NCBI RefSeq assembly: GCF_024372725.1
Contig: NZ_VOUA01000002.1
Location: 186,001 to 250,000, forward strand
Length of the DNA stretch: 64,000 nucleotides
Source of the DNA: Methanosarcina sp. KYL-1
GTDB taxonomy: Archaea; Halobacteriota; Methanosarcinia; Methanosarcinales; Methanosarcinaceae
Reading direction: 5' to 3'
The translations under genes were made by a program, and so were the position numbers. Below are positions 40,031 to 51,001 of this stretch, piece by piece. Position 1 is the first letter of the stretch, and every line of letters starts with the position of its first letter. The notes below the pieces were generated by a model, which was not told the DNA's origin, did not search any database, and saw only the letters and a list, made by a program, of their open reading frames with translations.

Positions 40031-40041
40031 AACCCCTTCAC

Positions 40042-40115
40042 GCCTCGTTGGCTCAGCCCGGTAGAGCGAGTGACTTGTAATCACTAGGTCGCGTGTTCAA
40101 ATCACGCACGGGGCT
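40042..40115 (+). tRNA. tRNA-Thr (anticodon TGT)
   Basis: A 74-base cloverleaf. Acceptor GCCTCGT pairs with ACGGGGC, the anticodon arm AGTGA/TCACT has loop CTTGTAA with anticodon TGT at 40076-40078, and the T-arm GCGTG/CACGC has loop TTCAAAT. The discriminator base is T and CCA is not encoded. It is the left boundary of the integrated element. Confidence 0.95.
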
Positions 40116-44266: not shown

Positions 44267-44356
44267 GCTAGTGTCGCGTCAGTCCTCAAGGATTAAATGA
44301 TTCTGAGTGGTTGTAATCGATTTTATATGACATTTTACTGCTGACGCGACACTAGC
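44267..44356. mobile_element. 90-bp MITE-like element
   Basis: Perfect 16-base terminal inverted repeats, GCTAGTGTCGCGTCAG (44267-44282) and CTGACGCGACACTAGC (44341-44356), enclose 58 bases with no ORF. The outer CTAG on each side can be read as a 4-base YTAR target duplication, as made by IS5-type elements. It lies just past the stop of the adjacent gene. Confidence 0.8.
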
Positions 44357-44390: not shown

Positions 44391-45158
44391 TTAATCAAAA
44401 TCAAAGATAGACCTGTTTTGTGGTGGTTCAATTTTTGGAGGGTATAAAAGAGAAATAATCATCCATGCATTAGGGTGAAATGAGTGAGTACCCATTAAGA
44501 AATAGAGGTCCCTACTTTTCATCCAGTCGAAGAACCTCATTCGAATTTTTTGAATATTCTCAGGATGATCTTCGCCCCATCTACTAACTAAGTTTCTATA
44601 CAGTTGTCCAGCTTCAGTATCGAGACATTTGCATTTATGATTTTTCTCATCTTCTCCAAAACATTTGAATTTATAGAACATGTCATATCTCAAAATATCT
44701 ATCGGGATAAAATTTCCATCTAATTTTTGTTGTTTCTGTAGTTGGACCTTCCGCTGATCGGGGGAACATTCTCTGATGATGAGGTCCATTAAATCGGGTT
44801 TTATGATCCCAAGGGATGTTTTATCCTCTTTCCAACTAGCTCTTAACTCATCAAGAGTGGAAACATTGTTTTTGCATATTTCCCTGATAGTTTCATCATC
44901 CACCATTTCTTCTTTTTCAAGGGTTTCAGGTCTGATTTTAAAGCTTTCTTTTCTGTGATCGCCTTTTTCTTTTATTTCGTAACTGATCCACTGTTTTTTA
45001 TGAAACCCAAAATTTACAAATTTCTCGAAAGGAACCGGATAAATCCGGCGAAGTTCTCCCTCTTCAGTAATACCTGCCATACAGACAGAGGCCTTGTATC
45101 TTTTACTTATCTCAGGGTATGCCATGCATAAAAGAAGGAGTTTCTCCCTCCCCGCCAA
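44391..45158 (-). CDS. Uncharacterised protein beside the ParB-DUF488 gene
   Basis: A 255-residue soluble protein. The N-terminal strand LLLLCMAYPEIS is followed by VCMAGITEEGELRRIYPVPF, a charged helical middle and a C-terminal part FFDWMKSRDLYFLMGTHSFH with several aromatics. I do not recognise a catalytic motif. It starts 54 bases after the ParB-DUF488 stop and probably shares its transcript. The start may be TTG 45158 or ATG 45125; the longer form keeps the first strand intact. It could be a partner protein for nucleic acid binding. Confidence 0.6.
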   Translation of the reverse strand: MAGREKLLLLCMAYPEISKRYKASVCMAGITEEGELRRIYPVPFEKFVNFGFHKKQWISYEIKEKGDHRKESFKIRPETLEKEEMVDDETIREICKNNVSTLDELRASWKEDKTSLGIIKPDLMDLIIRECSPDQRKVQLQKQQKLDGNFIPIDILRYDMFYKFKCFGEDEKNHKCKCLDTEAGQLYRNLVSRWGEDHPENIQKIRMRFFDWMKSRDLYFLMGTHSFHPNAWMIISLLYPPKIEPPQNRSIFDFD

Positions 45159-45212
45159 AAAAAACCACCCCGCATTTCTTTATAATCGCCCTATAATTTA
45201 CATCAAAAGCTT

Positions 45213-46259
45213 TCATAAGTGAATCAGCTCTTTAAACTCTCCTGTTTCTTTTAACCTAGTTGCTAGAATACTCCGATGACAGTATATTTTCTGATCCCTC
45301 TTGGGAGTGGCATGTTTTTCATAACACATAAGAGCAGTTCTTCCCGATTCCTTGATTTCATCAACAATTTTTGAGAAATCAAGCTCTTTTAAGAGGTGCC
45401 ACCGATAATACTTGTCAAAGCACTCAAAGGGGATGGCTCCATCCTTATACGGATTCTGCCACTCATAAGGGACACCAAGTTCCCTCTTGTGAACATAATG
45501 AATTTTTGCTCTCTCAAGTTCTCGGGAAAGAATTGGTTTGCTGAAGTCAGGTTTAAATTGGCTTTCTGTAGAAAAACGAACGTCAAAAAGATATTCAATA
45601 CCATTGTTCTTTAGGACTTCAATGAAGGTTTTAAGTTCAGTACCTTCGTACCCAATAGTATAGATGGTATTATTAAGATAGCGTTTTTTGGCCTTACGGA
45701 CTTCAGCCTCGTTGCGCTCAATTTTATTTTGTATAATATACTTTAAAAATCCCGCCTGATACTGGATATCAAGAGAAGCGATTATTTCTGCAACTCGCAT
45801 AATGATTATGTCATCTTCAAGAGCTTTTGCAACTTCATCATGTAAATCGAGTGCAATTTTAATTCTTCTCCTTACCCACTCATCTCTTTTTCCAATTTTT
45901 CTTGCTAACTCTGGTCCACTTATTCCAAATTCCTGGGTGATCCGATGCAGAACCTTTCCCTGCTCCCTTTCGGACATGTCTTGCCTGATTATGTTTGTTT
46001 TCAAGGCAAGAAATAGAGCTTCTATATCATCTACGTCTTTGACAGTTGCTTCAATTTCTGTCCAACCAAGTTCTTTTGAAGCTTGAACTCTGCGGTGTCC
46101 TGAAATTAATTCATATCCATCGCCTTTCGGTCTGACTATGATTGGATCCCATTGCCCATCTACTTCCAAGCTTTTTTTTAATTCATCAAATTGTTCTGGC
46201 TCTAGTTTTTCACGTATCGTATACGCAGAATCATCAATATTACTGATACGTATTTTCAT
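45213..46259 (-). CDS. ParB-domain and DUF488 fusion protein
   Basis: A 348-residue protein in three parts. Residues 1-95 are a ParB N-terminal domain with SGHRRVQASKELGW (53-66), the nucleotide-binding motif. Residues 97-145 are a ParB-type helix-turn-helix (FGISGPELARKIGKRDEWV). From about 195 there is a DUF488 domain: YTIGYEGTELKTFIEVLKNN, FDVRFSTESQFKPDFSKP, and the final LMCYEKHA...CHRSI cysteine pair. It probably binds DNA with a nucleotide switch. The DUF488 activity is unknown. It is transcribed with the following gene. Confidence 0.82.
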   Translation of the reverse strand: MKIRISNIDDSAYTIREKLEPEQFDELKKSLEVDGQWDPIIVRPKGDGYELISGHRRVQASKELGWTEIEATVKDVDDIEALFLALKTNIIRQDMSEREQGKVLHRITQEFGISGPELARKIGKRDEWVRRRIKIALDLHDEVAKALEDDIIIMRVAEIIASLDIQYQAGFLKYIIQNKIERNEAEVRKAKKRYLNNTIYTIGYEGTELKTFIEVLKNNGIEYLFDVRFSTESQFKPDFSKPILSRELERAKIHYVHKRELGVPYEWQNPYKDGAIPFECFDKYYRWHLLKELDFSKIVDEIKESGRTALMCYEKHATPKRDQKIYCHRSILATRLKETGEFKELIHL

Positions 46260-46623
46260 TCATTGTACACCTTCTTGGCTCCATTTTTTGACAAAACAAC
46301 TATTGATGCGGAATAACTTGCATATTCTAGAATATGAGAAACTCTGCCTTGAGAATCAAGAACGTTTTCTTATGCATCCACTCATTCCCCTTCAGAAACA
46401 TGGCGTTCCCCAAGGTTCAATCATTTGGCTCGTCTTGCGTGCCTCATATACCCTTGTTTTTTTCCTAAAGTTCAAAGGTCCATAAACTATATATTTTTTA
46501 AGATTTTTACCAAGTTATTATATAATAGAAATAAATATTAAAGATAGTATTATAATATGGACATGTAAGTGGTGCGCATGCTGGACTTGTTGGCACTGTT
46601 ATTCAGAATGATGGTGATAATGA
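46260..46623 (+). promoter_or_regulatory. Divergent promoter region in the element
   Basis: No ORF. A TATA-like ACTATATATTTTTT (about 46488-46501) could serve the DUF488 gene on the + strand. The ParB-DUF488 gene starts at the other edge. Confidence 0.35.
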
Positions 46624-47052
46624 ATGCTAAGGCAGACATATAAATCGATAATTGGCAAAACTAAGGCCTGTTACCCAGATGCCTTCTTTGTAGATGTTAC
46701 AAGATCCAGAAAATCAATATTAAGTCCTTCTTGGAATCTGCTGAATGATTACAAAAACGGCTTAGTAGACTGGACCGGATACACAGAAAGATTTAAGGAG
46801 GAAATGGAAAAACCAAAAGCAGTAAGAGAAATGCTTGGAATAGCTAAGAAAGCTCAGAAAAAAGATGTTTTTCTCGTATGCTTCGAAGGTCCTCTAGCAG
46901 GAGATAAATGCCACCGTTTTATACTGTTGGATCTAATATCAAAAATAGCCATAGAACATGGAATCGAAGTTGTCGTTAGTAAAGAATATGCCTGCTTAGA
47001 AGACCAAAAGAAAAACAAGCAATCTAAACAAATGATACTTAGTTGTTTTTAA
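46624..47052 (+). CDS. Stand-alone DUF488 family protein
   Basis: A 142-residue protein with the compact DUF488 pattern: FVDVTRSRKSILSPSWNLLN, DYKNGLVDWTGYTERFKEEM, then VFLVCFEGPLAGDKCHRFIL with the paired cysteines, as in the fusion gene, and a short basic tail. It is divergent from the fusion gene. Its chemistry is unknown. Two DUF488 proteins in one small element suggest a joint task. Confidence 0.75.
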   Translation: MLRQTYKSIIGKTKACYPDAFFVDVTRSRKSILSPSWNLLNDYKNGLVDWTGYTERFKEEMEKPKAVREMLGIAKKAQKKDVFLVCFEGPLAGDKCHRFILLDLISKIAIEHGIEVVVSKEYACLEDQKKNKQSKQMILSCF

Positions 47053-47400: not shown

Positions 47401-47633
47401 CTGACGTAAAGTACAGATTGCGGCAACTCAGATAAAAGCCATTTTAGAACAAAACTTCCCCTCCACACTTGGACCTGCCTACTAGCCCGGGACCTGTAAA
47501 GCAGTTTGATTGATAATGGAAATTAGAAAAGAAAAAAATAAATAGTAATCCAATAGAATTGAATAGCAATAGCAAATAAAAGGGAAATAGGCTTTCAACA
47601 ATAAGGTCTGTGGGTTCACCAGCAAGAAATCAC

Positions 47634-47737
47634 GCCTCGTTGGCTCAGCCCGGTAGAGCGAGTGACTTGTAATCACTAGGTCGCGTGGCCGCTAGGCCAA
47701 AGCAACGCCAGTTGCGCCTAGAATCACGCACGGGGCT
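47634..47737 (+). pseudogene. tRNA-Thr copy with hairpin in place of the T-loop
   Basis: Identical to the intact tRNA-Thr up to the 5' side of the T-stem, then 34 bases (47688-47721) replace TTCA, then the 3' side is identical again. The T-stem GCGTG/CACGC and acceptor stem are still intact. The insert itself folds: CTAGGC/GCCTAG (47692-47697/47716-47721) encloses GCAAC/GTTGC with loop GCCA. The TTC of the T-loop is lost, so removal of the insert would not give a normal tRNA. Confidence 0.85.
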
Positions 47738-47839: not shown

Positions 47840-48790
47840 TTATTTCCAGGAAGTTTTTCGCCCGGGCTTGATCTCCCCATCAATCAGGTCATACAGCTCC
47901 ACCAGAGCCCTCCGAAGCCTCCGGGTTTCGGTTTCCCAGACCTTCTTTTCAACGTGCCGGCTGCCTCCGGCCTTCACAGCAGCCATCCAGGCATATTTAC
48001 CGGCCACCCTTTTGTTGCCCCAGGGATGCCCAAATGCTTTACCGGCTTTCTGGGTACTGTATTTTTCATTGATAAGGAACTCGTAGATTTCAAGCACACG
48101 CATAAGCATGTCTTCTTCGCTGTCCTGCTCCGAAGAGCCAAAAACGACAAGGTTCCAGATACGGAACTGGACCTCCCGGCGCTTGAGGTCCAGGATTTCC
48201 GAGTTTGCGGCATCCAGCACCGTCCTGAACTCAAAGAAGATATCCGTTTCCCCGAAACCTGCAGGCAGGATTTTCCCGAGAGCTATCATGACGTGGATGC
48301 ATTCATGAAAAAGGATTCTGGCAATCAGGAACTCAAGCCGTTCCTGCAGGTTCCAGAACTTGTTGACCAGTTCATCTTCCCAGAGCTCGTAAGGGTTCAC
48401 CAGGATAAAGGACTTGTAGACGATCCTTTTTCGGTCTTCGGAAACCGAGCGGCTCGGATAAAGGGTCACGCCCTGCATTTTCCCGAAAAACTGGACCTTA
48501 ACCGCAAGGTCCCAGCAGCATTCCAACTCCCCGGAACGCACGCATTTGACCCGGTAATAATTCCCGTCAAAATGCACCGTTGAGAGCAGACTGTACATGT
48601 CCTTACTGTGTTTCCTTATCAGAGCCTTTACCTCAGTCTCCCGGTAGATGCTCAAATCAAGGTAAGGAACGTTCGGGACGACTGAAGAAGATAAATCGAG
48701 CATAAAAGAGTCCTGGGACTGAACCCGGTTCCCGGAATTCTTCTCTTGCAAACCACCTTTTTGCCCGACTTCCCGGACACCCTTCCCCAT
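47840..48790 (-). CDS. HECIH-motif protein, paralog A
   Basis: A 316-residue soluble protein with the helix FHECIHVMIALGK: His162-Glu163-x-x-His166, an HExxH zinc-peptidase-like motif. It is followed by GFGETDIFFEFRTVL, which may offer a third ligand. The core (from VKALIRKHSKDMYSLL to YELYDLIDGE-like end) is clearly related to the gene at 49994. I do not recognise the family. The N-terminal 29 residues are low in structure; Met30 is an alternative start. Confidence 0.6.
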   Translation of the reverse strand: MGKGVREVGQKGGLQEKNSGNRVQSQDSFMLDLSSSVVPNVPYLDLSIYRETEVKALIRKHSKDMYSLLSTVHFDGNYYRVKCVRSGELECCWDLAVKVQFFGKMQGVTLYPSRSVSEDRKRIVYKSFILVNPYELWEDELVNKFWNLQERLEFLIARILFHECIHVMIALGKILPAGFGETDIFFEFRTVLDAANSEILDLKRREVQFRIWNLVVFGSSEQDSEEDMLMRVLEIYEFLINEKYSTQKAGKAFGHPWGNKRVAGKYAWMAAVKAGGSRHVEKKVWETETRRLRRALVELYDLIDGEIKPGRKTSWK

Positions 48791-49993: not shown

Positions 49994-51001
49994 TCATTCA
50001 AGCAGCATGTGCCGGTCAAGTTCATTATACAGTTCCGTTAAGGTTTCCCGGAGTTTGAGGAGCTCCCTGTTCCGGGCTTTTGTGTCGGGAATGGGACAGG
50101 GACCTACTTTAAGGGAAGCCATATGAGAGTAGTCCCTTGCGATTTTGGCGTTGCTCCAGGGAAGGCCGAACCCAAGGTCGGTTTTTTCGATGCAGTATTT
50201 TTCATGGATGAGGAATTCATAGAGCTCAACTGCAGCCTTGAGCTTCGATCCCGGGCTTGCCGCAGGGGATGCAAACCCTGCAAGCCTGTAGAGGCAGGCA
50301 AGGACTACCTGGCGCCGGGAAGCCAGGACTTCCGAGTTTGCAAGCTGCAGGACCTCCCTGAACTCAAGGAAGATATCAGTATTTCCCAGGCCCTGAGGGA
50401 AGGTTTTTCCAAGGTGGACCAGGACGTGGATGCACTCGTGAAAGAGGATCTGGGCAATCAGGAATTCAAGCCGTTCCTGCAGGTTTGCAAACCTGCATAC
50501 GAGTTCCTCGTTCCAGAGCTCGTAAGGGTTTACAAGTACCAGGGACCTGTACACGATCCTTTTTTTGATCCCGGAAACAAAATGCTTCGGCTCCACGGCC
50601 AGGCCCTGTACGGCCCCGAAAAACTGGAACCGGACCGCAAGGTCCCAGCAGTATTCCCAGCCGCCCAGATGGACACACTTTACCCTGTAGTAGTTTCCGT
50701 CAAGGTTTACATCTTCGATCAGCCTGTACACAGCTTCACTGCCCTGCCTGATAAGGGCCTTTATGTGCTGCTCCCTACAAAAACTCAGTCCAGGATTGGG
50801 AACACAGACCGAAAATGGAGCCGATACAAAAGGATAGGCATCAGAAACAACACCTGAAGCATCCTGACTGGCGTTTTTTCCAATGGAAATGTTTTTGGGC
50901 TTCACTTCCCTGGTTTTTTTCAAAAATACTCGCCTCTTGTTTCCGTTTTTCAGCAAATTCCGGAGAGACTGGAATAAACAACTTTCCGGACAGAAGTACA
51001 C
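49994..51001 (-). CDS. HECIH-motif protein, paralog B
   Basis: Up to 335 residues from a GTG at 51001, paralogous to the gene at 47840. FHECIHVLVHLGK holds His188-Glu189-x-x-His192, and GLGNTDIFLEFREVL follows. The region NYYRVKCV...YCWDLAVRFQFFG is shared with paralog A. The first about 65 residues are variable, so the real start may be further inside. Function is unknown; a metal-dependent peptidase is a fair guess. Confidence 0.55.
   Translation of the reverse strand: MYFCPESCLFQSLRNLLKNGNKRRVFLKKTREVKPKNISIGKNASQDASGVVSDAYPFVSAPFSVCVPNPGLSFCREQHIKALIRQGSEAVYRLIEDVNLDGNYYRVKCVHLGGWEYCWDLAVRFQFFGAVQGLAVEPKHFVSGIKKRIVYRSLVLVNPYELWNEELVCRFANLQERLEFLIAQILFHECIHVLVHLGKTFPQGLGNTDIFLEFREVLQLANSEVLASRRQVVLACLYRLAGFASPAASPGSKLKAAVELYEFLIHEKYCIEKTDLGFGLPWSNAKIARDYSHMASLKVGPCPIPDTKARNRELLKLRETLTELYNELDRHMLLE

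Follow-up and report, generated by a model that had tools for sequence, protein, structure and literature searches.

The ParB-DUF488 fusion encoded in this Methanosarcina chromosome and the 255-residue protein encoded beside it form, as read from sequence, a recurrent two-gene module: a ParB variant of PDC-M19 carried by mobile elements of archaea and by Asgard genomes. We assign the pair as an archaeal variant of this listed candidate defence system because the 255-residue protein (hereafter B) matches the PADLOC-DB model PDC-M19B over residues 4-244 and the C-terminus of the fusion matches PDC-M19A (Table 1). A preliminary description had presented the locus as a candidate new system. That claim to novelty falls away, since PADLOC-DB already lists the pair as PDC-M19, and CTP binding by an archaeal ParB-DUF488-HTH protein was demonstrated in 2025 (PMC12704722).

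The genes lie within a window of 64,000 nucleotides, the whole stretch of DNA analysed, to whose numbering all positions refer unless a locus is named. That they belong to a small integrated element, as first suggested, is borne out by a 58-nt tRNA-Thr repeat (40038-40095 and 47630-47687) and by an empty site in related genomes (loci L171 and L172), where the left flank runs through the tRNA straight into the right flank. The element, delimited by a repeat search and ARAGORN, measures 7.6 kb and is bounded by an intact tRNA-Thr and the repeated copy. In this right-end copy a 34-nt hairpin (47688-47721), single-copy in the genome with up to 3 mismatches allowed, replaces the 4-nt TTCA of the T-loop. 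Two other genomes (G001 and G011, loci L166 and L168) have a second tRNA-Thr copy besides the main one, at distances of 3.3 kb and 17.6 kb, which suggests that tRNA-Thr is a repeatedly used integration site in the genus. The helicase of the element also matches the SCCmec Cch1 model at 7.5e-30, under the cut-off. A perfect 16-nt inverted repeat (GCTAGTGTCGCGTCAG; 44267-44356, arms 58 nt apart) occupies the gap below the B gene and is possibly a small transposon-like remnant. Just outside the element, a ThiF gene sits between two similar-looking proteins (47840-48790 and 49994-51001), the first of which matched no family in Pfam.

Table 1. Features of the integrated element, in window coordinates.
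Feature	Position	Strand	Evidence
tRNA-Thr(TGT), intact; integration site, left end of element	40042..40115	+	ARAGORN; locus kept in relatives
Tyrosine recombinase (XerA/XerC-like integrase), 366 aa	40128..41228	+	Pfam, NCBIfam, phrog_1 integrase
DUF927/Cch-like replicative helicase, 568 aa	41672..43378	+	Pfam DUF927 5.1e-57; phrog_8841 primase/helicase
M19B-like protein (B), 255 aa, TTG start	44391..45158	-	ORF; PDC-M19B E 1.7e-43; predicted OB folds
ParB-HTH-DUF488 fusion, 348 aa, ParB variant of PDC-M19A	45213..46259	-	Pfam; PDC-M19A E 1.8e-26
DUF488-N3a protein, 142 aa, stand-alone, divergent from fusion	46624..47052	+	Pfam 1.5e-14; PDC-M45C 2.5e-7
Right-end tRNA-Thr copy, broken by 34-nt hairpin	47630..47737	+	58-nt repeat; comparison with relatives

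The B gene begins 54 bp past the fusion on the same strand. The 142-aa gene, described earlier as facing the fusion, is in fact divergent from it, about 365 bp away, and its product bears a weak likeness to the DUF488 half of the fusion (23% over 82 residues). It had been counted as the third member of the system. Apart from the three genes being neighbours within this element, the evidence runs the other way: none of the other fusion neighbourhoods examined contains the 142-aa gene, and its one other strong homologue among 295 genomes of the phylum has no fusion detected near it in the short stretch examined. A joint three-gene system is therefore highly improbable, and the 142-aa gene is better treated as separate cargo than as part of the two-gene module. 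We also rejected the idea of DUF488 as a housekeeping paralogue, as PF04343 picks up only the fusion in its own genome (E <= 0.001).

The pair, in contrast to the trio, recurs. A genome scan with the B family returned 80 loci in many phyla, and the partner gene lies within 85 bp of B in 75 of them, with a median gap of -12 bp (an overlap). The usual partner, upstream on the same strand in 62 of the 80 loci and on the opposite strand in 2, joins a wHTH/Panacea-like domain to DUF488. Eight loci have a DUF488 protein without a recognised N-terminal domain, some of them cut by contig ends; two have a ParB-DUF488 fusion, one a ParB-ASCH fusion and five no partner. The ASCH case is acidobacterial, a ParB-HTH-ASCH fusion ahead of M19B (L053, 2103-3960). 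ParB replaces the usual N-terminus in the Methanosarcina fusion and in at least ten further archaeal copies. Full-length fusions are carried by this Methanosarcina genome, by the Haloquadratum walsbyi plasmid PL100, by the Sulfolobus plasmids pSOG1 and pBEU9E1 and by six Asgard genomes, one of them with two copies. B adjoins every full-length fusion found, on the same strand, supporting the earlier view that the two genes are a real pair; its sequence is divergent in PL100 and in the genome G532.

Nine ParB-fused DUF488 domains form one clade with support 100/100. A tenth member, in genome G272, begins with an apparent remnant of the ParB N-terminus fused to DUF488, and no B was detected in the 18 kb examined (within about 8 kb of the gene). 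The ParB-associated B proteins are not all grouped together in the B tree, so partner exchange may have taken place. In pSOG1 and pBEU9E1, B is followed by a third gene (L178, 13869-14375; L180, 10513-11004). Its motifs, read by eye, resemble those of a PD-(D/E)XK nuclease; we set this reading aside, as it rests on those motifs and the gene had no significant match in Pfam (both copies) or PADLOC (the pSOG1 copy).

B was first described as being of unknown family, which is right for Pfam and NCBIfam and wrong for PADLOC-DB. It had no significant match in Pfam, NCBIfam or PDB sequence searches, and among the profile and sequence databases searched it was matched in PADLOC and PHROGs only. The alignment of relatives to the TTG start led us to reject an alternative, frameshifted ATG start across the upstream T8 run. 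The AlphaFold2 model of B (pLDDT 88.8) contains OB folds. Matches to SSB, SOSS1 and RPA (Z 8.5-9.1) fall mostly within about residues 1-87, the OB fold being a common one, and residues 96-243 match a region of RPA70 at Z 7.8, where values near 8 are middling. From this model we infer that B may bind single-stranded DNA. Such folds, with the Asgard chromosomal copies whose neighbours read as ordinary, would also fit a host DNA repair or replication accessory module with no antiviral role. Its patchy spread (B in 36 of 150 relatives, a fusion match at 1e-20 in 5 of 393 genomes of the phylum) and the presence of the pair on plasmids argue against such a module, which we regard as distinctly unlikely.

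B also occurs by itself. The plasmid pSOG2, a relative of pSOG1, keeps B and lacks the fusion, and many Methanosarcina genomes carry B alone, so B has some role of its own. A stand-alone B paralogue (L120, 6897-7730) is present in the same genome as the pair and in many Methanosarcina relatives, and eight sampled members form one clade. Seven Gordonia phage records carry a B relative; a scan of IMG/VR with the B family returned none. The lone copies bear on whether the pair is a toxin-antitoxin or addiction module, with a toxic protein held in check by its partner. The tight operon would suit this, as would the weak likeness of the usual N-terminal domain to SocA/Panacea antitoxins, a SocA_Panacea match that occurs in 3 of 13 proteins, reaches E 0.014 at best and is not significant. 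Since pSOG2 and Methanosarcina chromosomes retain B alone, and the same-clade DUF488 protein of G272 stands without a detectable B within about 8 kb, either protein seems to be tolerated without the other, and we consider an addiction pair even less probable than a repair module.

Pfam bears out the description of the fusion as ParB N-terminal domain, helix-turn-helix and DUF488 in one protein, with ParB_N at residues 2-90 (2.2e-16), HTH_ParB at 94-187 (1.1e-7) and DUF488 at about 198-348 (1.7e-18). Its predicted model (pLDDT 90.4) has a fold match to nucleotide-bound ParB (Z 16.0). The GxxR motif reads GHRR in the Methanosarcina protein, and its Arg is kept in 11 of 11 aligned fusions, as is an Asn. 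By alignment to solved ParBs, the positions of Q58, E102 and E135 of Caulobacter ParB correspond to D38, H55 and T88; across all 11 fusions they hold D/N/T, a residue other than Glu, and T/S/N, never Q/E/E. In Caulobacter ParB, the Q58A and E135A mutants bind CTP with a defect in its hydrolysis, and the E102A mutant is clamp-locked (PMC8367383). The archaeal ParB-DUF488-HTH protein bound CTP by DRaCALA, with R-to-A mutants of GxxR as negative controls (Kaljevic et al. 2025, PMC12704722). Because all three hydrolysis-linked residues are lost, the GxxR Arg is kept and an archaeal fusion of this kind binds CTP, we infer that the clamp would be long-lived, with CTP bound and not hydrolysed. The loss of these residues in every aligned fusion makes this a sharp prediction on clamp behaviour.

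The DUF488 domain, to our knowledge, has no established activity. The cysteine pair noted in it earlier is real: C312 and C327, together with E314, H328, R329, D226, R228 and S233, are invariant across all 99 DUF488 domains aligned. In the fusion model the domain adopts an alpha/beta Rossmann-like fold, with CobF (Z 8.7) and SsoPTP (Z 8.2) tied as matches; the latter superposes at 3.0 A over 113 residues, and the spacing from strand Cys to Arg is not the CX5R of the cysteine phosphatase (PTP) loop. DUF488 is a probable enzyme with a conserved Cys-x-Glu...Cys-His-Arg site.

The match of the fusion to PDC-M19A covers residues 155-343, that is, DUF488 and the linker, and leaves the N-terminal third of the profile unmatched because ParB stands there. 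In the copies from pSOG1, PL100 and Lokiarchaeota, PADLOC again matches both genes. The PDC entries list putative defence candidates identified by 'guilt by embedding', most of them without experimental test (PMC12988326). In the literature searched we found no paper naming PDC-M19 and no experimental report of its antiviral activity. The flanks of 20 M19 loci matched 307 PADLOC models against 18 in 139 control proteins; these are raw counts in which many models overlap on one protein, and the controls were other regions of the same genomes, one per genome, including some short contigs. Methyltransferases, type I specificity subunits and AbiLi occurred near M19 and not in the control regions, and the PL100 pair sits among type I R-M, methyltransferase, restriction endonuclease and DUF262 genes. 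We know of no phenotype for PDC-M19 loci. The suggested link to defence is upheld by both profile matches, by the higher number of defence genes around bacterial relatives than around control regions and by the R-M genes around PL100, and is weakened by the Lokiarchaeota neighbourhoods, which on reading by eye look metabolic, not defensive. Taken together, defence appears the best-supported role of the pair.

We propose a model where the ParB part, once loaded on DNA, shuts into a CTP-gated, non-hydrolysing and hence long-lived clamp. B would recognise single-stranded or otherwise abnormal nucleic acid produced by an invading virus or plasmid; there the DUF488 enzyme would act on nucleotides or nucleic acid, so that the host or the element is protected from rivals such as a virus or another element. 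The pairing, the N-terminal swap and the Cys-x-Glu...Cys-His-Arg site in this model come from sequence, the OB folds of B from predicted structures, and CTP binding from published work on a protein of the same domain composition (PMC12704722). We put the probability at roughly 0.4 that this two-gene operon on a small integrative element, with clamp, DUF488 enzyme and B sensor, defends its host or element. It is tempting to speculate further that a hydrolysis-deficient, CTP-locked ParB clamp brings a Cys/His/Arg enzyme to DNA marked by an RPA-like sensor in mobile-element defence. In that full detail the proposal is rather unlikely; if true, the ParB clamp would here serve immunity, coupled to a new effector chemistry.

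A role in element maintenance or regulation competes with defence. A KorB- or Noc-like CTP clamp could silence or organise the element's DNA, with B and DUF488 aiding replication or copy number. In its favour, the pair is carried by plasmids and by an integrative element, the structural matches of the fusion include KorB and Noc, and a gene reading as a ParA-type ATPase lies near the pair in one Asgard contig. However, no parA is recognised in the Methanosarcina element, nor is one listed next to the pair in pSOG1 or PL100, the fusion is missing from pSOG2, and the far commoner form of the family lacks ParB and has more defence genes nearby than controls. We hold maintenance to be unlikely, and keep defence as the preferred reading.

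Among known systems, PDC-M19 is closest: like the Methanosarcina pair it comprises two adjacent genes, both matched by its models, with DUF488 at the C-terminus of gene A. Its gene A starts with a wHTH/Panacea-like domain where the fusion has ParB_N and HTH_ParB, and the ParB form is archaeal, occurs on mobile elements and belongs to one DUF488 clade. The fusion of Kaljevic et al. (2025, PMC12704722) has the same domain set; that paper treats the protein alone, and we did not find the partner gene, the distribution or the lost hydrolysis residues in the text consulted. Canonical ParB, Noc and KorB share ParB_N, HTH and GxxR with the fusion (structural matches at Z 13-16). Canonical ParB, however, ends in a dimerisation domain where the fusion has DUF488, keeps the catalytic Gln and Glu positions that the fusion has lost and, in ParABS, neighbours a parA, whereas the Methanosarcina element has no recognised ParA-like ORF. 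PadC of Myxococcus xanthus resembles the fusion in its ParB fold (Z 13.2) and differs in partner domain and context; this ParB-like protein binds CTP, has no noticeable CTPase activity and does not conserve two catalytic positions (PMC8367383). RPA, SSB and SOSS1 have OB folds as the B model does, with no sequence similarity to B detected. Set beside these systems, the ParB form, which occurs on named Sulfolobus and Haloquadratum plasmids, offers a handle on DUF488 and PDC-M19, joining a known nucleotide ligand and a DNA-clamp mechanism to an uncharacterised probable enzyme.
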